A stretch of DNA of 40,149 nucleotides from NCBI GenBank assembly GCA_029560805.1, contig JAKQKE010000125.1, forward strand, positions 1-40,149, read 5' to 3'. A model generated the notes under the pieces. It was not told where the DNA came from and did no database searches. It saw only the letters and a list, made by a program, of their open reading frames with translations. Source of the stretch: Spirochaetota bacterium (GTDB lineage Bacteria > Spirochaetota > Spirochaetia > Treponematales > UBA12059). Shown one piece after another: positions 1 to 31,670 of this stretch. Positions within the stretch are counted from its first letter, which is position 1, and every line of letters starts with the position of its first letter. Both the position numbers and the translations under genes were made by a program.

Positions 1-603
1 GTAGAACGGATAGCGTAGCCGGTCGACTCCGTACTCGACGATTTCACCCTTGACCGTTTCGGTCAGCGTGGACCAAGCCACGATCGATTCGATGCCGTCT
101 TCCCAGACCCCGGGTCGGAACTCGCCCCAGCCTTGATAGTACGAATCCCAGTCTTGGATAATTGCATCCTTAAAGCGCTTCGAGCCCCCGAAAAAGGCAC
201 CAGAACCTTCTCTATCTATCCCTGCAATATGCTCATCTGGATCCTCGTAGATATAGCGTTCGACGACGAGAAGCATATCGCCTCCGCTAGTAATGATTGC
301 AGGATCATGCCAATCGACAATCCCTGTGGTGTAATACCTATATCCATTATCAGCTGTAACGCCGTCATCGTAGGTCAAGATTGAATATAAGTGAGGCTTT
401 ATATGGTTCTCAATAATAAGGTACCCGCCATAAAGCACACCATGAAGTGGAAAATAATCCGCAGGATACACATAGTTGAACGGCTCGAGCCCTGGTAGGC
501 CCATGCGGTGATCCACCGGGATCAGGTAGTCGGCGTCGACGAAGCCCTGGGCCCCGAGACACGAGGCGCAGAGCGCCATGAGTAAAACCGTCATGATGCT
601 CAT
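1..603 (-). CDS. small exported protein of unknown function (3' end outside window)
   Basis: This open frame starts at ATG 603 and is still open at base 1, giving 201 codons. Its start shares one base with the stop of the giant gene (TGATG), so translation is probably coupled. The N-terminus MSIMTVLLMALCASCLGAQG reads as a signal peptide, with likely cleavage after the LGAQ region. A lipoprotein reading at one of the cysteines is possible but not classical. The mature part is rich in Tyr, Trp, Asp and Gly and looks beta-rich. I recognise no family. Codons between about 180 and 480 are clearly richer in A/T (many GAT, ATT, GCA, AGA) than the GC-rich neighbours, which hints at a different origin or relaxed selection. 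Position suggests a partner of the giant protein, for example an anchor, chaperone or immunity-like protein; that is inference. Confidence 0.7.
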   Translation of the reverse strand, partial: MSIMTVLLMALCASCLGAQGFVDADYLIPVDHRMGLPGLEPFNYVYPADYFPLHGVLYGGYLIIENHIKPHLYSILTYDDGVTADNGYRYYTTGIVDWHDPAIITSGGDMLLVVERYIYEDPDEHIAGIDREGSGAFFGGSKRFKDAIIQDWDSYYQGWGEFRPGVWEDGIESIVAWSTLTETVKGEIVEYGVDRLRYPFY

Positions 604-3600
604 CACCACGTCCCTTCCTTATAGCCGCCGCCATAGACGAAGTCAGACTCATCGGACAGAATCCCGGCTATGGCGTAACCCTGGTACAGTCCCCAGCTCT
701 TGAGCTGAGCCATAAGAACCTCATAGTAATTGACGTTTGCTTGAGTCTTCGAATATACCAAACAGCCGTCGCTAGAGCCCCAATCGGTACTATGTATCAG
801 CCAGCGATCGTCATACGGATAACCGACGCGCTTTCCTGCCGAGTCGAGCCGCTCGCCGGCCACGGTCGTCGCGTCGGACAGGATCAGCACGTCCTGGCCT
901 TCGAATTTCCTTGATCCTAATAGTGACCAGCGCGAGACGAACGAGCCGCGCGCTATGGTATATGCCTGTATCGTCGGCCCATCGAGCAACGAGTAGCGCA
1001 CATCGGTACCGATCGGGACCCCGGCAGCGTTCAACTGTCCATACGAGTTGTCGACGGTGTTCCATACGCCGCCGGCAACGAGCGTCGCTAGCTGTTCTCC
1101 CGAGTCGATGTCCCACTTGGTATAGCTCAAGCGATTCAAGCCCCCTTCCAGGCTATGCTTGACACCGTCCATCCACACGTCATAGGCCCCGTAACCGCGT
1201 TCGACCTCCGAGGTGATGGAATAGCGCTCGTACGCGCCGCTTCCTATCGACCGCAGGGCGGCTGAGCCATGGATCTCACCGTCGGTCAGGCTGAGCCCGA
1301 GGCCCTCGCCTATCCAGGCGCCGTTACCGCCCTGGGCCGACGCATCCCAGACGATGCCAGCGCCTTTCATGAGCGCCTCGCCGAGCAGACGTCGTCTGGA
1401 CTCGTCGCTGGCGAGCGCTATGACGCTCGCGGCCTCACTAGGGCTTCGACGTATAGCCTTGACGTCGACCGGGTCGAGGCCGAGTACGTCCTGCAAGGTC
1501 TGGTCGTCGTACCTGGACGCATCGTAGACGGATCCGCCGAACAACTCGAGGGCGCGGGCCTCTCCCAAGTACGCGACCAAGGCCGCCGCGGTCGATGACT
1601 CGAAGGCAGAGCCGTCGACCTCGACCCAGCCTGGGGAACCGTCATCGTTCAGGATCTCCGCGAGCACACGCGCCCTGCCGTCGTTGAGGAGTCGCCCGTC
1701 CATTGTCAGCTTCCAATTATCCCCGATAGAATCATAGGCCTCTGCGACGTACGAAGTAAAGCTTCCGCCCGAGTAGTGAGCAATATCTGCCCCGAAGATC
1801 GAGTCCAAGCCCATGAGACCGATCATCGCGCCACCGAATTCGGAACTGCCCGCGAGCCTCATGGCTAGTTCCGTATGGGCCGTCACGGCACTCAGCGTCT
1901 CGTAGGCCTGCCCTATCGCTCCGTCGTCGCGACCGTTTCGCCAAGCCTCGTGCTGTAGACCAATGGCCAGCTCAAGCATGGCCGTCTGACCGCGATCGTC
2001 GCCCGCTGGGCTGACGGTGATGGTACGATTCCCCAAGCCATCGGCGACCGTTACTGCCTTTCCCGCCAGGCTGTCGAACCGCAGCTCGTCTTGGCCCGCT
2101 ATGAGGCGCCATACCGTTTCCTCGGCAGCCAGGTCTCCGAAGGCGTACGCCGTCTCGAGCGCGCCGCGCAACGTCGAGCCTCGATCCGCGGCGAAGCGAC
2201 CTAGGCTAGCGTCGAAGGCCAAGCCCTTGCCTATCGACGTTCCGATGTCGATCAGGTCGTAGCCGCCTCCTCCGAGCGATCCCGCAACCCCGCCCGATCC
2301 GATACTGATGGATAGGCCTATCGAGCCGAAGGAGCTTGCGACCCGCTCGCTCTCCATCCGGGCGGCCGCATCGTAGCCGTCTCCGAAGACAGCACCGAGG
2401 AAGCCGGCCACCCCGAGTACGCTACGAGCGTTAGCGACGTTCAGGCTGATTCCCGCGCTATGCGACCACGCGTCCTCGAACAGCGCCGCCCCAGATACGC
2501 CGCGGTACGACGAAAAGGCCAGGTGCGTGGCGTATGAGGCGCTCTCGGTCGCCGCGATCGAGGCCAGGTCGGTAAAGCCTGACCATACTGCATCCTCGAA
2601 AGCGCCGCCGTAGTCCATCGACGATCCGCAGGCGGCTCCTGCCATACTACCTACCAATCCGGCGATCGCGCCTTCTCCGAAAACCGACTCCACGAAGCGA
2701 TCCTTATCGATGCTCAGCCCCGCCAGGGATCCATCGGCCTCGTAGTCGAGCTTGACCGACGAGACGAGGCCGGACGACGCGAGCTCGGTGAAGCCGCGCG
2801 CGCCGCTCAACACGGCGGCGTCGAATCCCGAGCGTAGCGTACCCAGGCCGGCTACGCTCGCGATGGCCCCGTCGAAGAGCCCGGCTGTGCCGTAATTGGC
2901 CAGCGACCCGACGGCTTTCTTCCCGAAGCTAAGGCTGGCCTCAGCCCATGACGTATACCCGCACAGCCCATCCAAGGCGCCGAACAGCATGTCATCGGCC
3001 AGGTTCATCGCCAAGGCGCCTATGCCGCCGGTCGCCAAGCCCGTGACGACCGATACGCCGACGTCGGCGACCTCGCGTAGCGTCGGCGCTTCGAGCCAGT
3101 CGTCCCTATCGTCCCACAGGTCCTTATCGTAGATCGGCTTGTTAGCCTCGGCCCAGCCCCGGCCCTCGACGACCGACCAGTAGACGAGAGCCGACATCAA
3201 GCGACCGAGCTCGCCCGAGCCCGCATCCGAGAAGAAACACTCAATTCCGTCATCGGGGTTGGCATCGGCCAAGCGTTCGGGCGATGTTCCGACGTGCTCT
3301 CCGAACGTCCCGCGCCCGTCTCCCGCCCCGAAGACCTCACGCCCCTTCTCTTCGACCGCGGCCTGCGCGCTCGCCATGCGCGCTCGCGCTATCGACGCGC
3401 CGCTCCCTCGTAGCGATGCCTCCGAAAGAGTATCCCCTAGGCTCCAGGGCGAGAGCTCGAAGTACGCGAACACGGGTACCTCGACGCGTTCCGTTATAAA
3501 TGCTTGTCCGACGGTAGAGTGGACGACAACGTCTTTGCCGTAGCGTGTGCCGTCGCGCCTCCAGGCGCCGTCGGCGACAAACAGGCCGTTCATATCGTCG

Positions 3601-6600
3601 TCGAAGCCTCGGTTGGCGTATGCAATTCTGTCGACGAGCGATACTTTCGCTTTCTCGATAGAGCGCCCGAGTTCCGAAGCCATTATCCCGGCCTGTATAC
3701 CAGCCAAGCTCTCGTTCGCGGACAACGCGAAATCGGCCGCCGCCGCGAGGATACTTCCCGATTCCCAAACGCGACCGCCGGCGAGTCCCGCTCTAACCTT
3801 GGCGCTTAAGCCGCCAGCCGATAGGGACCAGGCCTCGAGCGACTCACCCAGCCTCGCGAGGCCGCTACCGCCGATGACACGCTCGTAAGCTCCATAGCTA
3901 CTATCCTCAAAATCGAATCCAGTCACGGCGAACGAGGTGAGCTTCCTGCCGGCCGCCGCTGCATCGACTCCGAGCATCGCAACGATGGCCTCGGACGCGG
4001 CTCCATCCACGGCCATCGTCGCCCTGGCCGCCCAATCCCGCTTGGCCTCGAGCGAATCGGCGTAGGCATAGTCCCACGCGGCCGCCTTGATCGAGTACGC
4101 CTCGGCGAAGCGCTCGGCCCAGGACCCGGCCTCGGATTCAAGCCTCTCAAACGCCGCATCGAAGTCAGACTCCCCGCGCGACAACAGTAGTTCGCCTGCC
4201 CGTCGCCACGCTAGCCATCGCTCGTACAACTCCTGACGATCGCAGGTCCACTCAGCCTCCCTGGCGGACAGTTCCGCGTCGTAGCGAAGCGATACGGCTC
4301 GAGCGCTCAAAGTCGAATACTGACGAGCGGCGTCAAAGCCTTCGGAACCGGCGGCCGATTCGCCGCTCAGGGATCCTTCACGCAAGACCGTCTCGAGATT
4401 GGATACATGCGTTTTGGCGGACGCCGCGCCCGGCCCGAAGGCGGCGTTGGCCGCAAGAGCAAGGTCCTCTTCCGAGGCGCGTCCGGCGATGAAGGCGGCA
4501 TAGACGGCGTTATATATCTCTCCCGCCTCGACGCGTTCCACATCGTCTTCGGCATACGCCGCCTCCAGTCCGCCGAGCGAGTCGTCGCGTGACACCCGGC
4601 TCCATGTCGCGAGCGCTGACAGAGCTTCGAGCGAACCATGGTTGGTCGCCCCGGTTTCAGAGGCATAGGCGCCATACAACGAGGTCAACTCGTCGACCTC
4701 GGCAGACGTCAGCGAGCCGGACTGCGCCAACGCGGCTCTCAGGCTCGACTCATCGCACGCGGCTCCCCCAAGGGTGACGCCCTCGAGCGAGGCCAGCCGA
4801 TCGCACGAGGATAGGTACTTCGATCGTAACGCTACGCACGAAGGCATGCCGTCCGTCATGCGAAGGGCACCGGACTCGGTCTGGGCGAATAGGTCCGACA
4901 TGGCCGATGAGTAGACCGCTCGGGTCTCGCCGACGCCGGACATGGTTAACCCGAACGCCGTCATCGTGGCCAAGGCAAGAGCCGCGGCGGCTAGTAACCC
5001 GGGAACGAGGAAAATGGTGATCAAGAAGGCTCCGGCAACGGCGGCGGCGGCGAGAAACCCGGCGTACGTAGCCGCGCTCGCTTCGATGCCGGTACGGCAT
5101 ACGGCGATCTGACGTTCGGCCTCGGCCTCGAGCGCGGCATACTGGGCCCGGTCAGACCAACTCGAGAAGGCGTCGTAGGTCGACGAACCGTCGTTGGTAG
5201 CCTTGGGCGGCTTCATCGCCCCGGTCAGCTGCAACGCCAGATAGGTATCGAACATGGCCTTCTCGTCGCCATCGAGGCTGGCGTAGGCGGCCTCCTGGTC
5301 GGCCGCGAGCGAATCCTCCCGATACGTTGCGAGTATCTCCGCAAGCGTAGGACCCGCCAGCGTGAAGCGATGTCCCCCGATCGTGGCGTCGTCGATGGCC
5401 GATTCGGAATACGAAACTCGTGACGCGAAGCCTGAGTCGTTCGCGGCTAAGCGCTTAACGACGTAATCGCGGGCGAGCCCCCAGCGCTCGGCCCTGGTAC
5501 GATCGAACGAGACGCTCGTCATCCAGGAGGCAAGCCTATCGAGATTCGTCTCGAACGCGGTCTCGGACATCCTCGAACCGGTATCGCCCTGCGCCTGAGC
5601 CGAGAAGAACGCCGACAGCTCGCTTTGGCCCATCGCGCCGGAGAACGCGAAGGACGCGTCGTAGGCCAGGCGGATACAGCCGTCCTCTCCAATACGCAGG
5701 TATACGGCGAAGCCGTCGTCGACCGTTCGCCCAGTGGCCAGGCCCGACCTCGCGGCTCTGTAGGCCGCGGCGGCTTTTTCATTGGCGGCCAACTCGAGGG
5801 TCAGGCCGTCGGCCAGGGCCGCTTCGGCTTTTCTGACGAGCATTAGGCGCCGATAGCTCTCTCGATACTCGTCGTACGCGGCACGGTATTCGCTCGACGC
5901 ATATTCGCGCACCTCCTGGCCCTCGTCATAGAGCCCGCGTAGCGCGGCCATGGCCGTAGAGGCACGAGCCAGCGACGCCTCGCAGTATGACAGCTCCCCG
6001 GCTGGATCGCCGTACAGCGAGCCTGAGCACGCTTCGTCTGAAGCGTAGAGGTAAGCCGAACTAGCCCAACGCCAGATTGCGTCCTCGATGGCATACGCGT
6101 GGTTCGCCTCCTCGAGGTCGTCGTATCGCCGCGAGGCTTGGCTATACGCCTCGTCATATGCGGCTCCGGCCTCGGCGAGCTTGGCGCCGGCACTTTCGTA
6201 CGCGGCCAAGGCGACTCGTTGCCCTCCGCGCGCGGCCTCGATCTCGATCTCGAGGCTGCGCGCCAACTCGATCATGGCATCGGCATCACCGACCGCCCCG
6301 GCCATCGATCCCAGTTCTCCGAACCTTGCGGCGGCGAGAGCTCGAGACGAATCGAAGGCCAGATAGGCGTCCAAGGCTGCCTGACTAGCTCGGGCCACCG
6401 AGCTCGAGGCGCGGGGCAAACCCGAGGCGTCGTAGGGCGTGGATGGATCGCTGGTATACCGCTCCATGGACACTACAAGGCTAGCAAGCTGGTCACCACC
6501 CACCATGCCGATACTCTCCGAGTATCGCTTCCACGAGGCGAGGCCATCGTTCAAGGCCAGGGTCCGCCTATGTGCCGCGTCCGACCCGTCGGCGAGCGCG

Positions 6601-9600
6601 CCGGCGTTCCATGAGGCCGCGACAGCCGGCGTTTCGGTAGGCTCGGCCTCGGGCTCGCCCGGAGCTCGAGGCTCAGGCAGGCGCGACGCATCGGCTTCAA
6701 TGGCCGCCCGTAAGGCGTTAGACCCAAGCAACTCTCGCCAATGGAGAATTCCGCCAGCCTCGGCCGCCTCGGCTTCCGCTATATGACGATCGTAGGCGGC
6801 CGAATAGGCCGACAAGTCCTTCAGGCGCTCGGCCTCGGCGAAGCTAGCGTCTATCTTCAGGCTCGTCAGCGCGAATAGCCAACGACCGAACGGCCCCTCC
6901 AACGAGTTGGAAGAAGACGCCCCTTCTATGGACGCTACCATCGCGAGGGCCATGCCGACGTCACCTCCGCTGGCTTTCAAGGCCCAGGCGATGATGCCCC
7001 CGGAGAAATCGCCCAAGTAGGCGGAGCAAGCCTCGGCGCGGTCGATCACGGCCCGCCCGCGCTCGGCCTTCTCCGCGCTTACGAGCGACGCCAGCGAATC
7101 GAACTCGGAGGTTCGCCCCGCCTCGGCTAGACCGGCTAGGTAAAACGAGGCCGCGCTGAAGGCCATCGCCGTATCGCCGAGCCCGATGAAGGCCGAGGCC
7201 ATCGCCGCGTCTTCCGAAGCTCCGAGAGACAAAGATTGGCCATACGAACCAGCAAGTCCGACGAGGGGCAAGATCCACGAGACGAACTCGAAGTCTGGAG
7301 CGGTCGAGGCGACGATAGCGGCCAGGTAGCGTTCTATCGGAGCCGACGCGTCTCCCAGGTGTCCACGAGCCTCGCGTATATGGGATGCGAGTGTATCGAG
7401 CGAATCGACGACCATGGCTGTCACCCGAGATCGCGCGGCCTCGTAGCTCCAAGCGTCTCCGGCCTCGCCGGCCGCCGCGACGATGAGCGATTCCATCGTC
7501 GTCCCGGCGTCTTGGCCTTCGCTGGCGTAGTACGATCCTAGCCAGCTCGCCGCTCCGTCCGCTCCAGGCGACAGGAGCGACACGAGGCCCTCACGCGATA
7601 CGGCCCCATAATCTCGTTCGAGCATGGCGAAAACCATCGACTCCATCGTATAGGCGATTCGAGCCAGCGGGCCAGTGGCGAGGCGGGCGGCTTCCGCCGT
7701 CGCCGCGTAGTCCCACGACGACCAGGCGTCCTCGAGCCGTATACGCGCAGCATCCTTGACGACTATGGCCATGTCGTTCTGCTCTAAGTAGCCGAAACGG
7801 GCTGCCACCAGAGCGGCACCATCGCCGTCCATTCCCGCTATGGCTGTCGCGATCGTGGTTAGGGCCTCGTGGCGGATCGCCGATGCCTCGGACGCGCTAA
7901 ACGAAGAATCGTGGGCGAGCTCGTAGAGCGAGGCCAGTCCATGGTCCCCTGCTTCGGACATCGCTCGAGTCGAGGCCCCGAGGCGTCGGGCCGACGCAAG
8001 CCTCTCGGCGGCCTTGTTCGCGTACGCTTCGGCGCTACCATCCGGGGCCGCACCCACGGCGACGCTCCTGGCCACCACGTAGTCGAGCATCGCCTCGTCC
8101 CAACGACGCAGTTCGTCCGCCATCCATGTCGGCGCCAGCCCGGCGGCCTTCTCGACGGCCGAGGAAAGGTCCGCCATGGCGCCGGCCGTATCGACGCCGC
8201 CCTTCGTCACCGCGGCGGCGATATCGCGAGACGCCGGCAAGGAGCGTCCGTCGCCTAGGGTCAGCCCTAGCGGAAAGAGCGCTTCTGTCAAGGCCGAGGT
8301 CGCCTTCTCGAACCTGTCCCGCTCCAACGCGAACGATTCTCGCCCATACCGTTCGTATGCCGTCAGCATGCCTCTGGCGCGCTCGAGGGCCGCCGACTCA
8401 TCTATGGTCAGTATCGACGACAGATCGCTACCGGCCACGGCGAAGAAGCCCCGTCCCCTGGCGAATTCCCCGACGTACGGATCGTCGGCCGCGAGCGACT
8501 GGAGAGCGGACGAGAACGACTCGATCGTCGCAGAGCGATTCAGGTCTATCAGGCCGATGATAGCCTCGAGCGTACCATGTCGTCCGACGAGCGAAGCCGA
8601 CCCGCCGAGGCTCAGGAACGCGCGGCATAGCGCCATCGCTTCGTCACTCGCCAGATCCGGTCGCATGGAGCCCTCGAGGACCAGGATCGCATCGAGCTCC
8701 AAGCGGGCCCTGGCCTCGAGCCAGGCGATGAGCGCGCCAGCTTCATCAGACCTGAGCCTGTCCTCGAGGCTCAGGTCGCCGAGCGAACCGCCGGTCCTCG
8801 AGCCGTACCAGGCCGCGGAGTCGACAGCGCCAAGCAAGGCTACTGCGTCAAGGCGAGCCTCGAGCGCCGACTCGGCCAGGCTATCGGCTCGTCTGGCCAG
8901 GCGACCGGCGAGTTCTAGGCTTGAGGCGATCAGCTCGGCTCTTCTGTCGTCGCTAGACGCGCCTGTGAGCGCCGACGCAGTATGGTCGTGCAGGGCCAGG
9001 AGCGAGGCGTAGGCTGGATCCGCGGTCGACAGCCCGTAGCTAGCGGCGAAGAGCTCCCCCGAACCGACGCCCTCGGAGCTCCAATCGTATAGGGAAGACG
9101 GTTCGACTACGGCCGCGGCGGCGTTCGCCAACGTACGTAGGCTGGGCTCTTCGCCGACGCCTTCGACAGCTGAACGCATGGCCCTTCCCGCGGCCTCGAT
9201 CGCTTTGAACTGACCGCATTCCACGGCCCTCTCGTAGTACGCCGCGAGCAGCTCCGCTTCGCTGGCGGCCGACGTGTCGGCTGATAAGCCAGCCGATTCG
9301 ACGAGGTCGCGGTATCGGGTCAACAGCTCGGATCTCAGCCACTCGCCGTTCCCGCCGGAGGCCAATTCGACCATCAGCGATGAGTACTCGGACGCCGCAC
9401 GTTCGAGCCTCAGCCCGGATTCTTGAAGCGCGTCGAAGGCGAAGCCGATGCCCTCGGAGGCTTCGCCGATACGGCTACCCGCTTCGGATAAATCCGACTT
9501 GGCCTGGTCATAGGCCGAGGCCGCCGCGTCGTAGGCTGACCGCGCCGCCGCCAGTCCTGCGGCCGTATCCCCGGCGGTAGCCCTGCCCGAGCTCAGATCC

Positions 9601-11276: not shown

Positions 11277-11277
11277 A

Positions 11278-14200: not shown

Positions 14201-14337
14201 CAGACGCTTCCACCCGAGCCGGGCGAGCCTCCAAATTCGGTCACGGCGAGCGTCCTAGCCGACAAGGCTACGGCGGCGGCGGCGACGCAGACCGCCGCTA
14301 CCGGCTTTCCGTACCAGCGGGCGCGGGAATCGCTCAT
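11278..14337 (-). CDS. RND-family transporter subunit, second and divergent copy
   Basis: This is a 1019-residue inner-membrane protein of the AcrB/HAE1 RND superfamily, the proton-driven pump of a tripartite envelope system. The first half has TM1, a porter region and a TM4-like GLAIGLGSSIDCSILV. The second half repeats the plan and ends with a TM10-like VSGVAVNASVLMADY and a C-terminal helix pair. At the AcrB D407/D408 position it has D406 followed by C407. At the K940 position it has N912. TM1 is followed by TEFGGSP instead of the usual Leu-Pro-Asp motif. It starts within the stop of the preceding RND gene (ATGA overlap). The pair probably forms a mixed trimer, as MdtB/MdtC does, with this subunit the less active one; that is inference. 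Length is close to the family norm of about 1030. Confidence 0.9.
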   Translation of the reverse strand: MSDSRARWYGKPVAAVCVAAAAVALSARTLAVTEFGGSPGSGGSVCVVSLSQYGTNAREMESLVAIPLEDMLASLPGVIGTSSSCEYGEARVVARFAEGRDGTEAVSAAAQRLYESLPRSVQRPRISSARDDVGPAWVAAAVSDVGESGALRALLERRVKPALESLAGVGEVSIDGGGVTELAVLLDDEAAALVGLSAEAVAESLAGSDGLVASGSLRSGYALVPVSMEARYPTVESIREAVIPGGTGEAIRLGSIARVDSRQREPESLSRVDGRRAVTIAVIPTGDANLAMLSRDIACEAAKAASACGIRFTVLSDRGELAARSLKRVISAAIEAVVVVSVAAALVIGPRLYLGRSRVRSLAMVASAAMVPFILVVSAAILSCLMRGLSVGALAGLAIGLGSSIDCSILVAERLGSSKTVGSGAASVRELAPALAAGTATTILALAPMFGLEAVSPGVGAVAAGIAVTCGVSYVATIAIMPPVVLWGGDMVGLRRRSVEMARRLHRLRVGRPTTPRARRQSARLLAAAIAVCAERPRLVLAWSAAIGLAGVVAISISPKDVGTRTEGRDLYARLEFDQGLPLEAVDSRLADYAASLARLPGLVSTQSSARRGSANLLLTYDDDVADSASLAASAKLAAPAGSFLWIESRAPDERVWELLVRGDDDETCRSMAAAAAERIAALPLALEVALNFKVSAPAIVVKPDRDRSSAMGLPFSIVAGAMRRSVQAPVAYKRVGDTGDTDVRIGASRRVDEEALGSIVVASRGGATLEAASLVRIGREERIARIQRRDRRRSASLSIRTRRMDPEKAARETMAALEGLVTPPGYTLTFDRDAIEAARRLRRVTLSFVAAVALAYMAMAALSESFGLPLVALAAVPPSLAAPALILVATGSPLDASMACAFVAVSGVAVNASVLMADYIRKAKKVGFVASAMALYRVVRSRIVIVSATAATTVVGAIPLLVLDTGDMGMVRALAFVTACGGAASFMAAVTVVPALAAAAPRLFDRFGPSAPPRDGGD

Positions 14338-17300
14338 GCCGCGGCCCTTCGTCGAGCCAGGGCGGCCAGGACGGTCGGCGTTATGAACAGGGTAAGCGCG
14401 GTGGACGCCGCCATGCCGCCTATCATCGACACGGCCATGGAACGCTGGGGCGACGCCTCTGGATTCAGGCAGAGCGGAACGAGGGCGACCAGGGTCGTCA
14501 TCGTCGTCGCCAGTACCGGCCTCAACCTGTCTATGGCCCCTAGGAACGCGGCGCTATCGGGCGCCTCGCCGGCCGCGAGCCGTGCCGCGCAGGCCTCGTA
14601 GAGCAGTATCGCGCTATTGACGACCGTGCCGAACAGGGCGACGAGGCCCATGATCGACCCCGAGTCGAGGCCGACGCCGGCGATCAGCATCGTCGGACCC
14701 GATCCGGCCAGGGCCAAAGGAATGGCTGCCATGATGACCAACGGCGCCACGAAAGACTCGAACTGGCTACCGATCACCAAGTATAGAAGGACCAGCACAA
14801 GGGCGAGCGTCCATGCCATAGCCTCGGCGTAGCGACCGAAGGCGGAGCCGCCGGAACGACGGACACTGGACCTGGCGCCGCTGCCGTACGCGATCATGGC
14901 CCTCTCGACGGCCGCTTCGAGCGCGCCGCGACCGGACACGGCGGCGACCGGCGTCAAGTAGATCGCGTCCCGCCGGTCCAGCCTGGCGAGCGCGGCGGCG
15001 CTGTAGGCCAGGTCGAAGGTCGCGACGGTCGAGGCGTGTATGGGCGCGGAGCCCCCGGCTTCGACGGTGATTGAGCGCAGTGACTCGAGGCTCCCTCCGC
15101 GATCCGCGCTGCCGGCTCCGCCTGCGAAGACGACGATATCCGTATCCTCGCCGTCGGAACGCATGTTCCCAACCCGCACGCCCTCGGTAGCGGTCCTGAT
15201 GACGGCTTCGACCTCCGCAAGCTTGACGCGAAGGCCGGCTATCCGTTGCCTATCAGGGCTGGCCAGGACTCGTCCGGCCTGGCCATCTGGCGACCGTACG
15301 ACCGAAGCGAGCGCGTCTCCGGCCAGGTCGGACAGGTAGGACTCGAACGCGTCCGCGGCCGCCTTGGCCGCCTCGACGCTGTCGGCGTTCACGACGATGG
15401 TCGAACCCTCGACGAGCCCCATGATGGCGGCCGCCGGATCCGGAGGCTCCGCCACGGTTAGCGAGGCTGAAGGAGGCAGGGCAGCCCTCGCGGCGGCCGC
15501 TATCTCCCTGGCTATCGTTTCGGTGTCCGCCTTCGAGGATAGGGCGCAGAGGAGGCTCAGGCGCTCGGGCCCATACGCGGGATCGGCGAGCCTCGACAGG
15601 TCGCCGACCTCGGCTCCGGCCCAACCCCTCGTCGACACGACGCCGTCGACCCTCGATAGGATGGCGCTTAACGATATTGCCTCCGGCCGGATGCCTTCGG
15701 CGTCGCTACCGGGCTCGAATCGAGCGGTCACGAGAAGTTCGGAGACGGCTCCGCGCGGCATGAACGATACGTCTCTCGTGGCCGCCAAGGCGACTCCGAT
15801 CGCGGCTGCGATAGCGGCGCAGATGATGAGCCTCGACGGCCTGCGCATAGCCGTTGACAGCGAGCGCGCGTACGATGCCGCGAGCCTGGCCGGCGGCCGC
15901 CCCCCCGAGCCGGCCGTTCCGAAGAGCCTATACGCCGCCGGTAGTATGGTCATTGCGCAGACCCAGCCGCAGGCGCTGGCGACGACGACGGCGAAGGCCA
16001 GGTCGCCGAAAATGGAGCCGATGGCGCCCGGCAAGTAGAAGATGGGCATGAACACGGCCACGGTCGTTACCATGCCGCCGAACGTTCCGCCGACTACCGA
16101 GGAAGCGGCCTCGCCAATTTCGGCCGGAGTCGGGTACATTCGCCGACTGGTGCCGCGCGGCATCGTCTCTCCCACCGTTGACAGGGCATCCAGGGTAACC
16201 ACCGCGTTGTCCGATATGATACCCACGGCCAGGGCGAGGCCGGACAGGCTCATGCGGTTGAGCGATCGGCCCGCCAGCGACAAAGCGGCCAGGGTTGCGG
16301 CGATGCATATCGGGATTGATACGGCGACCATGACGGCGCAGCGGGCATCCCGGAGCATGGCGTACAGCACGACGGCGGCCGCGATCGAGCCGATGACGGC
16401 CGCCCAGGCCAGTTCCCGTATCGAGGCCGCTACGGCCGTCGACGAGTCACCGACCGTTCTAATGGCCAGCTCGTCCATGAATTCGACCGCCATCGCCTCG
16501 GCCACCAGTACCACCTCGCGAGCCGTAGCCACCGGGTCGGCGCCTGGACGAAGGTAGACCTCGAGCGCCACCGTCTCGATGCCGTCGAGCACGTAGAGAC
16601 TATCGGCCGGCGCGTCTCGCTCATAGACCCGTGCCAGCTCGGATAGGCGAAAAGAGCCGGCGGGAGAGACGGCTACCACGGCTTCAAGCTCGGCGACGGT
16701 CTTCGGCCGACCCTCCGCTATGACGACGAGCTCGAGTCCTCCGCCCTCGACCGAACCGAGCGGGACGTCGGCGCACTCGGCGGCCAGCGCCGAGGCCACG
16801 TCCCTTGCCGTCATGCCCCGCGCGGCCGCCTTACGCTCGTCCACCGCGACGGCTAGCTCTCGATCCCTGCCGCCGACCACGGTCACGGCGCCGACGCCTA
16901 CCACGCGCCGCAACCTCGCCCGGCCCTCGCGTTCGGCCATGCGCTTGGCGAAGGCCAGGTCCCCGGCCATCGGGGCCATAGTCACCGTGACGAGCGGCGA
17001 CGCCGCCGGGTCATCGGCAGTAACGCTTGGCTTGGTCGCGCCTTCCGGCAACCCCGGATAGGTCGCATCGATGATATCGCGTACGTTCGACGCCATCCTC
17101 GCTGCGTCCTCGCCCCAGTTGAAATCGAGGGTGATGACGGTACGTCCGTCCCGGCTAACGCTCGACGACCCGATGAGCCCGTCCGCCGAGGCGAGCGCGT
17201 CCTCGAGCGGACAGGTGACGAGGGAGCGCATCGCCGCCGCGCTCATACCGGGCATCGTCGCCTCGACGAGGACGCGCGGTACCGACACATCGGGCAGGCT

Positions 17301-17408
17301 CCGCCTGGGCAGGTCTATCGCGGCCCCGATGCCGGCCATCATGATGGCGACCAAGCCCATAGCCACGGCCACCGGCCGGCCCGCGCACGACGTGATGACG
17401 CGCTTCAT
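14334..17408 (-). CDS. RND-family transporter subunit, canonical copy
   Basis: This is a 1024-residue AcrB/HAE1-type RND transporter. ATG 17408 is preferred because MKRVITSCAGRPVAVAMGLV is a normal RND N-terminus and it lies 4 bases after the upstream stop. The longer reading from 17504 only overlaps the neighbour. After TM1 comes the typical LPDVSVPRVLVEATMPGMSA segment. TM4 carries VGIISDNAVV with D400/N401, and TM10 carries GTVVNSAILLYEA with N931 in place of AcrB K940. The Asp-Asn/Asn arrangement is common in HAE1 members that use a VDN and VVN motif set, so it does not imply loss of function. It overlaps the second RND gene by ATGA. Together with the adaptor and TolC-like protein it completes a tripartite pump; the substrate cannot be read from sequence. 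Confidence 0.93.
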   Translation of the reverse strand: MKRVITSCAGRPVAVAMGLVAIMMAGIGAAIDLPRRSLPDVSVPRVLVEATMPGMSAAAMRSLVTCPLEDALASADGLIGSSSVSRDGRTVITLDFNWGEDAARMASNVRDIIDATYPGLPEGATKPSVTADDPAASPLVTVTMAPMAGDLAFAKRMAEREGRARLRRVVGVGAVTVVGGRDRELAVAVDERKAAARGMTARDVASALAAECADVPLGSVEGGGLELVVIAEGRPKTVAELEAVVAVSPAGSFRLSELARVYERDAPADSLYVLDGIETVALEVYLRPGADPVATAREVVLVAEAMAVEFMDELAIRTVGDSSTAVAASIRELAWAAVIGSIAAAVVLYAMLRDARCAVMVAVSIPICIAATLAALSLAGRSLNRMSLSGLALAVGIISDNAVVTLDALSTVGETMPRGTSRRMYPTPAEIGEAASSVVGGTFGGMVTTVAVFMPIFYLPGAIGSIFGDLAFAVVVASACGWVCAMTILPAAYRLFGTAGSGGRPPARLAASYARSLSTAMRRPSRLIICAAIAAAIGVALAATRDVSFMPRGAVSELLVTARFEPGSDAEGIRPEAISLSAILSRVDGVVSTRGWAGAEVGDLSRLADPAYGPERLSLLCALSSKADTETIAREIAAAARAALPPSASLTVAEPPDPAAAIMGLVEGSTIVVNADSVEAAKAAADAFESYLSDLAGDALASVVRSPDGQAGRVLASPDRQRIAGLRVKLAEVEAVIRTATEGVRVGNMRSDGEDTDIVVFAGGAGSADRGGSLESLRSITVEAGGSAPIHASTVATFDLAYSAAALARLDRRDAIYLTPVAAVSGRGALEAAVERAMIAYGSGARSSVRRSGGSAFGRYAEAMAWTLALVLVLLYLVIGSQFESFVAPLVIMAAIPLALAGSGPTMLIAGVGLDSGSIMGLVALFGTVVNSAILLYEACAARLAAGEAPDSAAFLGAIDRLRPVLATTMTTLVALVPLCLNPEASPQRSMAVSMIGGMAASTALTLFITPTVLAALARRRAAA

Positions 17409-17412
17409 CCCG

Positions 17413-18969
17413 CTATTTCTGTAGTGACAGGCATTGGTCTTCCTTGGCCGCGTTGCCCCAGGAATCGGCGTAGCCGCCATCGAGACTGAAGGTGACGAGG
17501 CCACAATCGGCGCGGTTCGTCATCGAGCCGTCGATACGGACTATGTCGAGCCCGGACCAAGCCGGGTGAGGCTCCGCGTAGTCGAAACCGCCGGCTACTA
17601 CCCTCAGCGCGTCGAACTCGAGCGAGCCGTTCGTCGCCGAAAATGAGAACGCGCCCATCGTCGAAAGGAGGTCGATGCTCGCGCCCTCTGCCAGCTCGAG
17701 GTACAGCTCGATCGAGGTGCCCGTCGGGACGCCGATCGGATAGCGTCCATCGCCGCCAGCTATCGCCAAGGTAGAAAACGGCTCGTCCAGCGCGAAAGCC
17801 GCGAGCTCGCGATCCGCCGCCTCAGCCCCCGGCGCCAGCGGTAGCCGAAGGCCGACAAAACGAGGCGGCCTCGAGCCGGGCCCGTCGGCCACGATGCGGT
17901 ACACGATGTCGGAGTCGGACGAGTCGCCGTCCTGGTCTTCGACCCCGGACTCGACTCGCAGTGTGAATACGCCGTTCCATTCCGGCGGCTCGTCGAAGCG
18001 CCAGAGCACCCTGGCCGAATACGCTCCTATCGTCTCGATGAGCGGTTTCGGACCGGAATCGCACGCGAGAGCCGAGGCCAGGCCGGCTAGCTCGACCGGT
18101 TCGGAAAAATCCATCCGGAGGCGCCAACGCGACTCCCATCCGCGGTTCAAGGTATACGCGCCGTCCTCGGCCTCGTCGGCCTCGAGCAGGGCCACAACCT
18201 CTCCTTCGGCGTCGACGGCGGCGGCGGCCGTCACTTCGGGCGCGACGCCTTCGAGCCCGGCGACGAAGCGTACGACTACCGAGCGGCCGATCTCGTTGCC
18301 CTCCTCGTCGCGCAGGCCGGCGTCCGCCTCGCACGTATAGTCGACCGAGCGCGCCCAGGGTTCGGTCGGCCTGAACTCGATCCGTCGTCCGCCCTCGACG
18401 AGCCGCCAGGAGCCGCGCGCCCGAGGCGCGATCGACAGGCTGGAGCGGAACCCGATCGGGTCGATTGCCTCGTCGAATTCGAGCGTGAGCGTTCCAAGCT
18501 CGCCGACCATGCGCCCCCCGTCCGGCGGATCGCTCGACACGAACCGGGGCCTTGAGCGCTCGGCCTTCGTGGAGAAGCGGGCCTCGAAGGCTCGCTCGAG
18601 CGATACGCCGGCTTGGTCCATCGCGCCCGTACCGACGCGGAGCTCGTAGTCGGCGCCGTCTCGTAGCGGCGCATACGGCGTGAAGCCCATCCGTGCGCCC
18701 AGCCAGGAGAACGCACCGAGGACGGCCTCGCCGTCGACGCTCAACGAGAAGGCGCTTTCAGAGCTAGGCCTGTCGGCCTCTCGGCTGAATTCGACGCCGA
18801 CGATAATCCCGCCCGCTTCGTCGATCCTCTCCTGACCAGGCGACCAGGCGACGACCTCGAAGGAGTACGGTACCAGCAGAGAGCAGGCGTTGGCCGACGC
18901 CAGGAGCATCGCCAGGAGCGTCGCCAGGGATATCGCTAACCGCGTCGATACGCGGGCCATCGTTCTCAT
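17413..18969 (-). CDS. Ig-like (Big_5/SbsA-type) domain lipoprotein, second copy
   Basis: This is a 518-residue predicted lipoprotein. MRTMARVSTRLAISLATLLA is followed by a lipobox at SANAC, giving Cys29 as the lipid site. It contains Ig-like modules of the SbsA/Big_5 type, seen as repeats of a 'VxFSREAD...SAFSLSVDG' or 'LxFDEAID...SSLSIAPRA' pattern near residues 55-130, 145-240 and 270-350. These modules typically bind to or stack in the envelope. A C-terminal globular part has four Cys in the last 250 residues. The start overlaps the stop of the first Ig lipoprotein (ATGA), and its stop is 4 bases before the RND gene. Accessory lipoproteins of this kind are not standard members of RND operons, so they may shape the machine or its cargo; that is inference. 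Confidence 0.8.
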   Translation of the reverse strand: MRTMARVSTRLAISLATLLAMLLASANACSLLVPYSFEVVAWSPGQERIDEAGGIIVGVEFSREADRPSSESAFSLSVDGEAVLGAFSWLGARMGFTPYAPLRDGADYELRVGTGAMDQAGVSLERAFEARFSTKAERSRPRFVSSDPPDGGRMVGELGTLTLEFDEAIDPIGFRSSLSIAPRARGSWRLVEGGRRIEFRPTEPWARSVDYTCEADAGLRDEEGNEIGRSVVVRFVAGLEGVAPEVTAAAAVDAEGEVVALLEADEAEDGAYTLNRGWESRWRLRMDFSEPVELAGLASALACDSGPKPLIETIGAYSARVLWRFDEPPEWNGVFTLRVESGVEDQDGDSSDSDIVYRIVADGPGSRPPRFVGLRLPLAPGAEAADRELAAFALDEPFSTLAIAGGDGRYPIGVPTGTSIELYLELAEGASIDLLSTMGAFSFSATNGSLEFDALRVVAGGFDYAEPHPAWSGLDIVRIDGSMTNRADCGLVTFSLDGGYADSWGNAAKEDQCLSLQK

Positions 18970-20444
18970 GGTTTAGCCTCCAGGATCTGCGCCAGGTCGG
19001 CCCGCAGGCGTAGGCCGCGCTGGCTCGCAAGTCCGTCTTCTCCGCCCCGCACGACCAGGCGGTAGTACCGCTCGCTGTCGGCGTCGCTCGCCTCCAACCC
19101 CTCCCAGGTCATCGACAGGGTATCGGCCGACGGCCACCAGGCGCTCCTCAGGCGCGGCGACCGGAGCCCGGACGGGAAAAAGGCCGATACCGTCACCGAC
19201 CTCGTAGCCGATTCCATCGCGACGGCCGCGAAGCTGTCCGAGAATCTGAGGATCAGTGTCAGTTCGCCTTCCGGCGGGTCGCCTATGGTCACGGCGAACG
19301 CTCCCCCTTCGCCCGGCGACGGACTCTCCTCACCGACTAGGGTCGAGACGCTCGATAGCTCGAGGTACGGCGTCCGCGGCGTGAAACCGAAGACGCGTTC
19401 CCGCGGCAGGGCGAGCCCGGACGTGTCCTTGGCCGCGGTCCTCACGACGAGGCGCTGGTATTCCTCGGGCGTCCAAGGCTCTCGAGGGGTATAGACGAAC
19501 AGCTCCGTTGACGCCGCGACGACCTGGCCGGAACGAGCCGGCGACATCGTTATTGCGCCGACGACACTATCGACGTCCATGGGCTCCGAGAACCTGACGG
19601 CGACCGAGTCGCCCGCGTCCGTCTCGGACAGGTCAGTCGATAGCTCGACCCAGCGCCCGTCGACGAGAGCGGCAGGCCCGGTGGCGAGCACCGAGGGCGT
19701 CTCCGCATCGAGGTCGGTTACGAAGCAGCCAGACTCCGCCCTGGCTATCGGAGCGCCATCGACGGCCCGCGCGTCCTGGCCTAAGGACCAAGCGTAGCAG
19801 ACGCATGGCGAAAGCCGCTCAAGGAGGCGGATCGACATGAGCGACCCGCCTTCGCCCCAAAGGAAACGGTAGTCCGGTCCCGGGCTGAGCGAGAAGGCTG
19901 ACTCGACGCTAGCCTCGTCCATCGGCTCCGAGAAGCGTAGCACGAGGGCCGTGGAACCGGATGCCGACGCCGCGACACTCGCTCCATCCGATGGGGCGGA
20001 GGATACGAGGCGAGGCATGGAGCTGGCTCGCAGGACGAAGAACGGAAGGTCCAGCGCCAAGTCCGCCACCCTGCCGTCTTCCATGCGCACGTCCCCCGAC
20101 AGCACGAAACGGTAGCGCGATCCCGGATCGAGCGCTTCGATCGGTCGCCAGCTCAGGCATAGGCCGTCCCAGGATAGGTCGCCGTCGGTCGGCCCGGTTG
20201 AGGAGCGAACGGTCACAGCCTCCTCGGCGTCTGTTCGCGACGGGGCAGCCGGGAACATGACCCACAGGGTCTCGTCCCTCGAGGCGACGACTTCGTATGG
20301 TCCCGAAGGGTGGGTCGCTACCGCGACCGGCCTCAAGTCGACGAGCCCGCAAGCGCTCTGAGCGAGCGAGCACGCGCAGAGCGCGACGATGAAGGCAGCT
20401 CCGCGCGGCGGCCCCTGGGGCTTCTCATCGGCCGATCGATACAC
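18966..20444 (-). CDS. Ig-like (Big_5/SbsA-type) domain lipoprotein, first copy
   Basis: This is a 492-residue predicted lipoprotein. The start codon is GTG at 20444, placed 5 bases after GGAGGG; no in-frame ATG competes. MYRSADEKPQGPPRG precedes a hydrophobic stretch and the lipobox AQSAC. At least three SbsA/Big_5 modules are visible, each with the signature 'RFSEPMD...SAFSLSP' or 'RFSEPMD...GAITMSP' near residues 165-190 and 285-305, plus a first divergent one near 45-130. It overlaps the adaptor gene by 20 bases and the next Ig gene by 4, so the three are coupled. It resembles the second copy in plan but not closely in sequence, suggesting an old duplication. The role is unknown. An outer-membrane or periplasmic scaffold for the RND machine is plausible. 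Confidence 0.8.
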   Translation of the reverse strand: MYRSADEKPQGPPRGAAFIVALCACSLAQSACGLVDLRPVAVATHPSGPYEVVASRDETLWVMFPAAPSRTDAEEAVTVRSSTGPTDGDLSWDGLCLSWRPIEALDPGSRYRFVLSGDVRMEDGRVADLALDLPFFVLRASSMPRLVSSAPSDGASVAASASGSTALVLRFSEPMDEASVESAFSLSPGPDYRFLWGEGGSLMSIRLLERLSPCVCYAWSLGQDARAVDGAPIARAESGCFVTDLDAETPSVLATGPAALVDGRWVELSTDLSETDAGDSVAVRFSEPMDVDSVVGAITMSPARSGQVVAASTELFVYTPREPWTPEEYQRLVVRTAAKDTSGLALPRERVFGFTPRTPYLELSSVSTLVGEESPSPGEGGAFAVTIGDPPEGELTLILRFSDSFAAVAMESATRSVTVSAFFPSGLRSPRLRSAWWPSADTLSMTWEGLEASDADSERYYRLVVRGGEDGLASQRGLRLRADLAQILEAKP

Positions 20445-21783
20445 GGCATCCCTCCTCGAGCCTCGAACCCGGCTCGTCGACTACCACCTCGCCGACTTTC
20501 AGGCCGGACAACACCACGCGGCCGCCGGGGCCGACGTCGCCGAGCGTGAGCGACCTCCTCCATACAACGCCGTCGCTGACCACGAAGGCGCTCGCCTGGT
20601 CGCCTTCGCCGAGCGTCGACGACGACGGGATGACCACCGCCACGGTCGGCGGACCCGCTACCACGCTTACCCGCGCGAACATGCCGGGCCTCAGATCCTT
20701 GGGATCGTCGACGAACGCGACGCGCGCCGTGAACGACGCGCTGCCCGAATCAGCCATCGGCGAGACGAAGTCCACCACCGCGGCGTACTCGCCTCCGGTC
20801 GCGTCGACGCGGACCGTGGCAGCCAGGCCGGGCGACAAGCGTACCGCCAGCGCCTCGCGAACGGTGAATACAGCCCTCAGGCCGTCCGTCCCTATCAGCG
20901 TTATCACCGGGCTCCCACTATCGGCGCGCTCGCCCTCCTCGAGGTGCAGGGTGCCGACGACGCCGCTGATCGGCGCCACTAGGGTCAGCTCGGCCAACGC
21001 CAAGCCGGCGGCCTCGAGCTCCTTGACGGCCGCCTCGAGCGAGGCCTTGGCCGCGTCGCGCTCGGCGACCAGGCTCTCCGTGCATAGGTCGGCCAGGGCG
21101 GCGGCCCGAGCCGCTTCCCCCTCGGGTACGCGGAGGCCCCTGGCCACGAGGTCCTCGTCGCGCAACCCGACGAGGTTCGACGCGATCTCACGTTCGATCA
21201 GCTCTATGCCGCCCTTAGCCGACTCTAGCGAGAAGCGGCCGGATCGTACCGTCTCCTCGGCGACGCTCCCCGCCGCATACAGCGCTTCCTGGTCCGCCTG
21301 CTTGCGCTCCGCCTCGCGTAGCTCGAGCCTGGCGAGGCTCAGCTCCATTCTCTCTCGCTCGATGTCGAGTAGCCGCGACTCGGCGTTCAGCCGACCGCTG
21401 AACAGGCGGGCCTCCGCCAAGGCGAGCTCGGCGCTGGCGCTCGCCACGCCGTTCTCGGCTATTCCCAGGGCCAGTAGAACGCGGGGGTTCGTTACGACGG
21501 CGACCACGTCCCCCTTCTCTACCTTCTCGCCCTCCCTGTACGGTAAGGATGCGATTACCCCGGACTGGGCGGTAGCCAGGTCGACTTTCCTCGAGTACGC
21601 GATGGCCCCGTACCCCTGGATCTCGTCATCGAGCGTGAGGGAGGTCGCTACCGCGACCCTAACCGGCAGGACTTCCTCGGTCGCGGCGGCCGCGCTCGCC
21701 CCGCAGGAGGCCGTCGACAGGGCGAGCGAGGCGACGAGCGCCTTGGCGCTCGAGTTCCACATCCGTTTGAACCCGGAGCTCAT
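20425..21783 (-). CDS. RND periplasmic adaptor (membrane fusion) lipoprotein
   Basis: This is a 452-residue HlyD/AcrA-type adaptor linking the RND pump to the outer-membrane channel. ATG 21783 is chosen because it overlaps the TolC stop (ATGA) and sits just after GGAGGG; the 7-residue longer form has no ribosome site. The N-terminus ends in STASC, a relaxed spirochaetal lipobox. The beta-barrel/lipoyl half begins near IQGYGAIAYSRKVDLATAQS and returns in a LVAPISGVVGTLHLEEGERA lipoyl second half. Between them, residues about 110-260 form a long helical hairpin rich in Glu, Arg and Ala. The last third is the MP domain with LRPGMFARVSVV. The hairpin contacts the TolC-like tip in known homologues. 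Gene order with TolC before it and RND after it supports one complex. Confidence 0.92.
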   Translation of the reverse strand: MSSGFKRMWNSSAKALVASLALSTASCGASAAAATEEVLPVRVAVATSLTLDDEIQGYGAIAYSRKVDLATAQSGVIASLPYREGEKVEKGDVVAVVTNPRVLLALGIAENGVASASAELALAEARLFSGRLNAESRLLDIERERMELSLARLELREAERKQADQEALYAAGSVAEETVRSGRFSLESAKGGIELIEREIASNLVGLRDEDLVARGLRVPEGEAARAAALADLCTESLVAERDAAKASLEAAVKELEAAGLALAELTLVAPISGVVGTLHLEEGERADSGSPVITLIGTDGLRAVFTVREALAVRLSPGLAATVRVDATGGEYAAVVDFVSPMADSGSASFTARVAFVDDPKDLRPGMFARVSVVAGPPTVAVVIPSSSTLGEGDQASAFVVSDGVVWRRSLTLGDVGPGGRVVLSGLKVGEVVVDEPGSRLEEGCRVSIGR

Positions 21784-23237
21784 AGTCCCTCCACGAAAGC
21801 GCATAGGCCATCGGGCGGCAGTCCGATTAGCCGCTCGACCTCCCGCTCCGCCTCGACGATCGAGGCGCAGGCCTCGAGCAGATCGATCTCGGCGTCAGCT
21901 CGTTCTAGCCCGGCGCGTAGGGCCTCGAGCGTCGTCGCCCGGCCCAAGTCCCGTCTCAGGCCCACCGAGTCGAACCTGATCGACGCCAAGCGCGCAGCGT
22001 CTCGGCATAGCCGCCGCCTGGCCAACGAGTGTTCATAGGCTCTAGTCGCAGCCATGGTCCTGACTCGCAGCTCGCGTAAAGCCGCCGCGTAGGCCTCCTC
22101 CTCGACGCGCAGGGCCAAGCGGGCGCTCCGTATATCCATGATGCCCGCGGGATCCGGCACCGGCTCCGCCGATAGCGTATTGGCTGCGTTCCTCTCGCGC
22201 CTTCCGTCGCCGCCCGTTTCCAAGCCCATCCCGACCTTGGCCAGGGGTCCGGAGAATTCGACCCTCGCCCCGACGGACCACGATAGAGAGCTGAGGGGGA
22301 ACCGATCGCCGCTTAGTCGCCAGGACGCCGTCAGGCCTATGGCCGGGAGCCATCCCGCGGCGGCGGCCCTGGCCTCGGCTCGTTTCGCCACGATTCGGTA
22401 ACGCGCCTCCCTGAGTTCGGGAGACAGCTCGACGACGTGCCGCCAGAGTTCGTCCGCGTCCAACTTAAGCTCGGGCCGCTGGCCGAGGCCGCCGTCCGCC
22501 AACGGAGGTAGCTTGTCGACGCCGAGCGCGTACGCAAGGTTCCCTTCCGCCTCGCTCAACTCCAGACTCGCCTGCGATAAGGCTATCTCGGCATCGCCTA
22601 TCTCCAGGTCGGCTTCGAGAAGCTCGTCGGCCGAGGCTAGTCCAAGACCCAGCTCGGACGCCAGCGCGGCTCGGCTCAGGCGAGCCGCGTCCAAGGCCGC
22701 TGTCTGGATCTCCAGGCGTGCCCTCGCCGTCATGACCCCGCGATACGAGGCGACCGCGCCCTCGCCGGTCTCGTAGGTCGATCGCTCCAACTCGAGTCTG
22801 GCCAAGCCCAACTCGACCGACTCGAGAGCTCGACGCGCGGCTAGCCGTCCGCCGTCCCATAGCGCCTGCTCGATGCTGGCCGACATGGAACGGGACAGCG
22901 ACTCGGCGCCGACGGCGGCCAGGGTCTCGTCGGCGCTCGCGCCCATCGTGACTGATGGGAGGAACGAGCGGAACGCGAGCCTCCATCGGCCTTCGCGCAG
23001 ATCGAGGGCCTCACGATCCGAGGAGAGCGCCTGATCGTTGGCTATGGCGTAAGCCGCGGCTTCCGCGACGCCCAGCGGCTCGCCCGCGATGATGGTCTCC
23101 GGATAGCCGCGTACGGAAGCCAAGGCGTCGAGCTCAACCGACGTCGCGTAGCGATAATCGACATAGTACCCGGCGCACGCTCCGAGCGTCAGCGCGACGG
23201 CCGCGACCGGCGCGCATAGCGTCTGCGATGTCCTCAT
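21780..23237 (-). CDS. TolC-like outer-membrane efflux protein
   Basis: This is a 485-residue outer-membrane efflux protein (OEP/TolC family). It probably forms a trimeric barrel and a periplasmic helical tunnel for the tripartite machine. The N-terminus has a signal sequence with a lipobox LGAC, so it may be lipid-anchored as OprM is. Two similar halves are visible, each with long helices of alternating Ala/Leu/Glu/Arg. The first is roughly residues 55-250, containing LSLAREAL-like heptads; the second is about 260-480, starting at ELSPELREARYRIVAKRAEA. The start overlaps the stop of the TPR lipoprotein (ATGA) and its own stop overlaps the adaptor start. Length is within the family range of about 420-500. 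Confidence 0.9.
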   Translation of the reverse strand: MRTSQTLCAPVAAVALTLGACAGYYVDYRYATSVELDALASVRGYPETIIAGEPLGVAEAAAYAIANDQALSSDREALDLREGRWRLAFRSFLPSVTMGASADETLAAVGAESLSRSMSASIEQALWDGGRLAARRALESVELGLARLELERSTYETGEGAVASYRGVMTARARLEIQTAALDAARLSRAALASELGLGLASADELLEADLEIGDAEIALSQASLELSEAEGNLAYALGVDKLPPLADGGLGQRPELKLDADELWRHVVELSPELREARYRIVAKRAEARAAAAGWLPAIGLTASWRLSGDRFPLSSLSWSVGARVEFSGPLAKVGMGLETGGDGRRERNAANTLSAEPVPDPAGIMDIRSARLALRVEEEAYAAALRELRVRTMAATRAYEHSLARRRLCRDAARLASIRFDSVGLRRDLGRATTLEALRAGLERADAEIDLLEACASIVEAEREVERLIGLPPDGLCAFVEGL

Positions 23238-23905
23238 GGCGTGGGCTCCCGTATCCGTTGTCCCAGGCTGACGGCCGCCTTCTGCGCGTTCGACCCGACC
23301 GGAAGTACCGTAACCGCCGCGTCGAGGTCGGCGAGGGCGCCGGTGCGGTCCCCGGACGCCCAGCGTATCGACGCGCGGTCGATGAAGGCCATGCCGACCT
23401 CCGCGGACGCCTCGAGCGCGCGGTCGAGGTACGCCTTGGCATCGGCGAGCCGCTCGTCATCGGATGCGAGGCTGGCCATGAGTCTGAGGGCCGTAACCGA
23501 TCCGGGATCAGCCGATACGGCTATGGCGCAGAGTGCCGACGCCTCGGCGGCCAAGCCGCTCGCCCGATAGGCCCTGGCTAGCCATACGGCCGCCTCTCCC
23601 GCCCTGGGCGTCGCCGCGAGAGCCCGTTTGAGCGCCGCTACCGCCTTCTCGTCGTCCCCCGACAGCAATGACGCCTTTCCGAGCAGGAGCAAGGCCGGTA
23701 AGAAGCGCCCGGAGCGCCCGAGCGACCGCTCGGCCCGAGCCGCCGCCCCGACCATGTCGCCGGCGGAATACCGCTCGAGCGCCTGGGCGTACGCGCCGAT
23801 GGCCGCCTCGCTGGCCACGCTCGGATCCCGAGGCCACGAACAGGCGGCTAGCCAGGCGCACGATAGCAGAGCCGTGGCGGCGAAGTGGATGCAATCCTTT
23901 GGCAT
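23234..23905 (-). CDS. TPR-repeat lipoprotein, first gene of the RND/giant-protein operon
   Basis: This 223-residue protein has the signal MPKDCIHFAATALLSCAWLA followed by a lipobox LAAC, so it is a predicted envelope lipoprotein. Residues about 35-215 hold roughly five TPR-like helical pairs, with signatures such as 'YAQALERYSAGDMVGAAARA', 'GKASLLSGDDEKAVAALKRA' and 'ASIRWASGDRTGALADLDAA'. TPR lipoproteins usually mediate protein-protein contacts during envelope assembly. The start is ATG 23905, with GGAGGAG just upstream. It is the first gene of the coupled operon and overlaps the TolC-like gene by ATGA. Upstream lies about 100 bases shared with a divergent gene; I found no strong minus-strand promoter there. 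Confidence 0.85.
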   Translation of the reverse strand: MPKDCIHFAATALLSCAWLAACSWPRDPSVASEAAIGAYAQALERYSAGDMVGAAARAERSLGRSGRFLPALLLLGKASLLSGDDEKAVAALKRALAATPRAGEAAVWLARAYRASGLAAEASALCAIAVSADPGSVTALRLMASLASDDERLADAKAYLDRALEASAEVGMAFIDRASIRWASGDRTGALADLDAAVTVLPVGSNAQKAAVSLGQRIREPTP

Positions 23906-26089: not shown

Positions 26090-26115
26090 CCAGATTATTC
26101 CTTGATTTCAGAGAC

Positions 26116-26394: not shown

Positions 26395-26420
26395 TCCCGA
26401 CTCCGATTGGTGATACTAGA

Positions 26421-26454
26421 CAAAATCGGAGGGCCTCCGTAGGGGGCCCCCCGA
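26421..26454 (-). terminator. rho-independent terminator of cstA
   Basis: On the minus strand, TCGGGGGGCC pairs with GGCCCTCCGA (10 bp with one G-U pair, 9-base loop) and is followed by TTTTG. It lies 70 bases after the cstA stop and just before the next minus-strand operon. Confidence 0.75.
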
Positions 26455-26523
26455 CGATCGAGCCTGTCGTCGCCCCCGCCCGGCGCGAGCCAGGCAGGTA
26501 GCATCGACGTGAATCCGGAGGAA

Positions 26524-31666: not shown

Positions 31667-31670
31667 ACCG

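Follow-up and report, generated by a model that had tools for sequence, protein, structure and literature searches.

Why would a complete tripartite RND machine be encoded in one tight cluster with an exported protein of about 3500 residues? The question is raised by a 40,149-nucleotide stretch of DNA from a member of the Spirochaetota, referred to here as the window, in which nine tightly packed open reading frames (ORFs), all on the minus strand, occupy positions 1–23905. The usual substrates of tripartite RND pumps are small molecules; a protein of this length would be out of the ordinary. A first-pass annotation of the window had proposed that the pump, its lipoproteins and the giant protein act together. 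Comparison with related genomes points to a more specific reading: the cluster is probably a polymorphic toxin system used between bacteria and equipped with a trans-envelope machine of its own, a reading that we give a probability of roughly 0.6.

Gene content and organization of the locus

The gene set comprises a TPR lipoprotein, a TolC-like channel, an adaptor, two Big_5 Ig-like lipoproteins, two AcrB-type RND subunits, the giant and a small exported protein (Table 1). The machine genes fall into the Pfam families TPR, OEP, HlyD/RND_mfp, Big_5 (twice) and ACR_tran (twice), and RND, adaptor (TIGR01730) and TolC-type genes are all present together in the cluster. Adjacent genes overlap by 4 bases at the tpr/tolC, tolC/adaptor, ig1/ig2 and rndA/rndB junctions, by 20 bases at adaptor/ig1 and by 1 base at giant/small, while 4 bases separate ig2 from rndA and 1 base separates rndB from the giant. 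These values take the second Met as the start of the adaptor and internal Met codons as the starts of rndA (likely near 17408) and small. The nine genes, single strand and tight coupling described in the first-pass annotation are confirmed by the ORF coordinates and Pfam, and its ATGA overlaps, 1- and 20-base overlaps and gaps of 1–4 bases agree with the coordinates, some of them given these alternative starts. At the rndB/giant junction a terminator scan listed no terminator-like site.

Table 1 Features of the cluster in window coordinates. Signal peptides and lipoboxes were called by eye.
Feature	Position	Strand	Basis
tpr, TPR lipoprotein, first machine gene	23234..23905	-	Pfam TPR; heads operon in relatives
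tolC-like outer-membrane channel	21780..23237	-	Pfam OEP, E 3.5e-28; conserved in relatives
Periplasmic adaptor (membrane fusion protein)	20425..21804	-	TIGR01730 RND_mfp above cut-off; conserved
ig1, Big_5 Ig-like lipoprotein	18966..20444	-	Pfam Big_5
ig2, second Big_5 Ig-like lipoprotein, ig1 paralogue	17413..18969	-	Pfam Big_5; cross-hits with ig1
rndA, RND inner-membrane subunit, AcrB fold family	14334..17504	-	ACR_tran, E 4.7e-139
rndB, second, more divergent RND subunit	11278..14337	-	ACR_tran, E 1.9e-70; conserved rndA partner
Giant, exported, read as polymorphic toxin	606..11276	-	ORF; alignments of relatives
Giant: N-terminal signal peptide, ~31 aa	11184..11276	-	Translation, by eye
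Giant: conserved N-terminal domain, phylum-wide anchor	9900..11240	-	Alignments A1, A7 and searches
Giant: pre-tip conserved core, WDxRxxWxxAPT motif	2934..3236	-	Alignments A2, A8
Giant: second pre-tip motif, HEAWRNG...ET...HTEMA type	1839..1952	-	~320–470 aa from C-terminus in most giants
Giant: variable tip, L,D-transpeptidase-like by motif	606..1199	-	Alignment A9; invariant H, S, C
Tip: putative catalytic H-x6-S-x-G-C motif, residues 3495–3505	762..794	-	Alignment A9
small, putative exported immunity protein, 3' truncated by contig end	1..609	-	Homologues behind same-type tips

The giant has 3557 residues when read from the ATG at 11276 and 3596 from an upstream GTG. Searches of the whole protein against Pfam, NCBIfam and the PDB gave no match, and its body showed neither RHS repeats nor any other named domain. 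The small gene lacks its 3' end because the first base of the window is also the first base of contig C5 in a 304-contig genome.

MdtB is the nearest solved relative of rndA. The D407 position of the AcrB proton relay is invariant in both RND subunits, which lack D408 and have N in place of K940. We considered an unusual ion coupling as a special feature of this pair and discarded it, since other RND proteins of the same genome share the residue pattern. Upstream of the operon (window 25160–28206) lie genes for an ArsA-type ATPase and a CstA-type carbon starvation protein, which are syntenic in relatives, and a further ORF (31145–32062) carries two helix-turn-helix domains.

Conservation of the machine and the giant

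How widely is this arrangement shared? Of the 294 genomes of the order, 83 contain the giant's N-terminal domain; they are spread over 29 genera and three families. A wider profile detected relatives of the giant in 73 of 393 genomes across the phylum. Relatives in a public genome collection, searched with alignment A8, are Treponema and Spirochaetaceae records, mostly metagenome-assembled. Within the order, 40 flanks were read, and in 32 of them the RND genes of the operon adjoin the giant, with tpr-tolC-adaptor-ig1-ig2-rndA-rndB-giant as the usual order, and the window's own family keeps this order with the exception of one genome (G004). The operon also adjoins the giant in 9 of 20 distant flanks, where it is often divergent or reordered. 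The gene order recurs in most flanks read over the three families, with the genes clustered but rearranged in other classes; judged from these genomes, such recurrence is far beyond chance. The first-pass annotation had named conservation of the RND pair next to the giant as a check on its proposal, and the counts bear it out. The opposite case, a giant standing mostly away from RND genes, was not seen in the flanks of the order, and the terminator scan listed no site separating the giant from rndB.

The same association appears in gene content. A profile of the Ig-like lipoproteins detects 95 of the same 294 genomes, and 81 genomes hold both giant and Ig genes, 2 the giant only, 14 the Ig gene only and 197 neither (Fisher p = 8e-55, a value that ignores phylogeny). 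Several of the 14 Ig-only genomes, in which no giant N-terminus was detected, have marginal Ig scores. Where a giant stands alone within the order, an orthologous RND subunit and an Ig gene are found elsewhere in the genome, G171 excepted. The RND pair and the giant are apart in G004 and several other genomes; in G004 (loci L037/L038) the giant directly follows ig2, and the RND pair lies on contig C26 with Ig genes of its own.

Such separated genomes are what one could cite for the view that machine and giant are independent neighbours brought together by operon hitchhiking. Against it stand the co-occurrence in 81 of 83 giant-bearing genomes and an adjacency that outlasts inversions and reordering in other classes, which together make hitchhiking most improbable. 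Adjacency that survives rearrangement favours functional coupling over inertia, and machine and giant are very likely coupled in function, as the first-pass annotation had supposed for the pump, lipoproteins and giant; the toxin nature of the giant, discussed below, had escaped it.

A single 6-Mb genome (G464) holds at least four giant ORFs of roughly 4500–5100 residues, on contigs C13, C21, C22 and C24; three of their C-termini were read, and none is recognisably a wall peptidase.

Swappable tips on a conserved body

When complete giants from about 45 genomes are compared, the body is conserved and the C-terminus varies. Taking the 587 pairs that align across half of the body or more, less than 10% of the last 150 residues aligns in 541. 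Two congeners (G046 and G058) share 86% identity across 2725 residues and are then unrelated, within syntenic flanks. When 49 sequences were clustered by their last 200 residues, 15 groups emerged.

What do these tips encode? Above the Pfam gathering score they match Peptidase_M23 (three tips), Peptidase_M15_4 (one) and Peptidase_C39_2 (two), and weaker matches include further M23 tips, CHAP, NlpC/P60 and YkuD. The scanned tips included no nuclease and no other toxin family that acts inside cells, although several of them matched nothing. Ahead of the swappable tip, most giants carry a motif of the form HEAYRDG...ET...H, which could be part of a processing or translocation domain.

The tip in the window belongs to the largest tip group, in which H, S and C are invariant across 12 tips in an H-x(n)-S-x-G-C arrangement like that of L,D-transpeptidases. 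It has no Pfam hit of its own, and the tip of a distant relative matches YkuD below the cut-off (E 0.018). Modelling gave weak and mixed results for an L,D-transpeptidase fold: of two AlphaFold2 models, both of moderate confidence, the first gave a weak Foldseek match to Helicobacter Csd6 (E 4.6e-3, TM 0.25) and the second no structural match.

The downstream gene and orphan cassettes

If the tip is a toxin, the gene behind it becomes the obvious candidate for immunity. This gene usually lies within tens of bases of the tip gene and usually starts with a signal peptide or lipobox, as would be expected of immunity against a toxin that acts in the periplasm. Orthologues of the truncated small protein reach 235–382 residues, and its homologues stand behind L,D-transpeptidase-like tips in four other genomes (G015, G017, G013 and G004) as well as in an orphan cassette of the window's own genome. 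Across genera, the class of the downstream gene co-varies with that of the tip: among 25 same-tip pairs, 8 also have the same downstream-gene family, against 1.8 expected, a value reached by 4 of 5000 permutations. The pairing has exceptions: in G018 a tip of the window's class is followed by an unrelated gene, and in G016 no such gene stands behind the tip.

Orphan tip-immunity cassettes were found at loci in G058 and G168 and on contig C276 of the window's genome. Behind its own giant and downstream gene, G058 carries an orphan ORF that is the tip of G046 (97% identity over 359 residues), followed by the downstream gene of G046 at 91%. Contig C276 (locus L046, 992–6896) contains two orphan tip-plus-gene pairs. 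One matches G014 in both tip (53%) and downstream gene (57%); in the other, the downstream gene has relatives behind the tips of G004, G017 and G013, which are of the window's class, and resembles the small gene of the window only weakly.

The first-pass annotation had listed the small exported protein as a member of the nine-gene operon. We read it as a putative immunity protein and not a machine part, as it follows the tips and co-varies with them. On the comparative evidence, a toxin-immunity identity of the giant and its downstream gene is very probable.

Could the giant instead work on its own cell, as a wall remodeller or envelope scaffold whose hydrolase tip is held in check by the exported inhibitor downstream, with no rivals attacked? 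Several tips are indeed cell-wall peptidases, and the shape of spirochaetes depends on the wall. Housekeeping enzymes do not exchange tips or folds in this manner, though, and here congeners with 86% identical bodies swap tips, orphan cassettes persist and unrelated enzyme folds replace each other. We therefore consider self-directed remodelling quite improbable and retain the polymorphic toxin reading.

A possible route to the cell surface

What the comparison supports is the gene set, its near-obligate co-occurrence, the swappable tips, the orphan cassettes, the co-variation of tip and downstream gene, and the peptidase tips of relatives. From these we infer that the downstream gene confers immunity, that neighbouring cells are killed and that the RND machine exports the giant. 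In the mechanism that we propose, Sec would take the giant across the inner membrane by its signal peptide, and the RND pair, adaptor and TolC-like channel would then carry it out of the periplasm and onto the cell surface. Help in transport may come from the TPR and Ig-like lipoproteins, possibly as partners at the outer membrane or surface. Once there, the long conserved body would serve as a carrier and the C-terminal tip would attack the peptidoglycan of neighbours, while the small exported protein would shield the producer's own wall.

For the transport step a different arrangement is conceivable. The giant might be a polymorphic toxin that leaves by another route, with the RND machine moving a lipid, a glycan or a small partner that anchors or matures it. 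The small size of usual RND substrates and the genomes in which the RND pair is unlinked from the giant would fit such a division of labour. Yet no other secretion gene was seen linked to the giant in the flanks read, and it is the whole tripartite set, channel and adaptor included, that travels with it. We regard the other-route alternative as unlikely. The best reading of the genome context, at about even odds, is that the RND machine exports the giant, the first option that the first-pass annotation had offered.

Comparison with known systems

The closest functional analogue of the cluster is contact-dependent inhibition (CDI). In CdiA/CdiB systems, which use type V two-partner secretion, a surface protein of thousands of residues carries a swappable toxic tip and is encoded next to an immunity gene. 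No CdiB/TpsB-type two-partner transporter was found among the cluster genes by Pfam. Compared with CDI, the cluster has an RND tripartite machine in the transporter's place, several tips of relatives are wall peptidases and the immunity candidates are exported.

With AcrAB-TolC and MdtABC, the latter with two RND subunits, the cluster has in common two RND subunits, an adaptor and a TolC-type channel. Its conserved set differs in adding two Ig-like lipoproteins, a TPR lipoprotein and the giant. Tripartite conduits that carry proteins are known from type 1 secretion and MacB-type export, where they are driven by ABC proteins (PMC8277102), whereas the motor here is of the RND type and the candidate substrate has about 3500 residues.

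On the toxin side, the cluster resembles the polymorphic toxin systems of Zhang et al. 2012 (PMC3482391) in its long exported carrier, variable C-terminal tip, matching downstream gene and orphan cassettes. L,D-peptidase and other peptidoglycan-cleaving toxin domains are among those catalogued there. The export routes given in the available portion are type II, V, VI, VII, PVC, TcdB/TcaC, PrsW and MuF, and no mention of RND, TolC or efflux was found in that portion. The toxin side is very probably a polymorphic toxin system as Zhang et al. define it, and what is newly recognised is its probable RND export machine. The open-licence literature yielded no paper that connects RND with spirochaetes and with a giant or polymorphic toxin; a description elsewhere is possible.

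A last comparison leads to TIGR04388 (Lepto_longest), a family of proteins that are, like the giant, very long and spirochaetal. Membership of the giant was considered and dropped, as neither it nor its genome gave a match at the NCBIfam cut-off; parts of a few other giant ORFs match the family below it. At two loci, L247 (G331) and L250 (G464), an RND/Ig operon is found next to a TIGR04388 protein or no more than several kilobases from it; in G331 the two adjoin. Tentatively, and at somewhat less than even odds, the cluster may represent a previously undescribed RND-driven secretion of giant peptidoglycan-directed toxins that is old in the spirochaete phylum, with TIGR04388 possibly as a distant branch. 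Should the main reading prove true, spirochaetes would possess an interbacterial weapon for which we found no description in the literature, an RND tripartite machine would stand as the probable export route for a protein of about 3500 residues, and there would be a lead on TIGR04388, a family that has been named but not explained.
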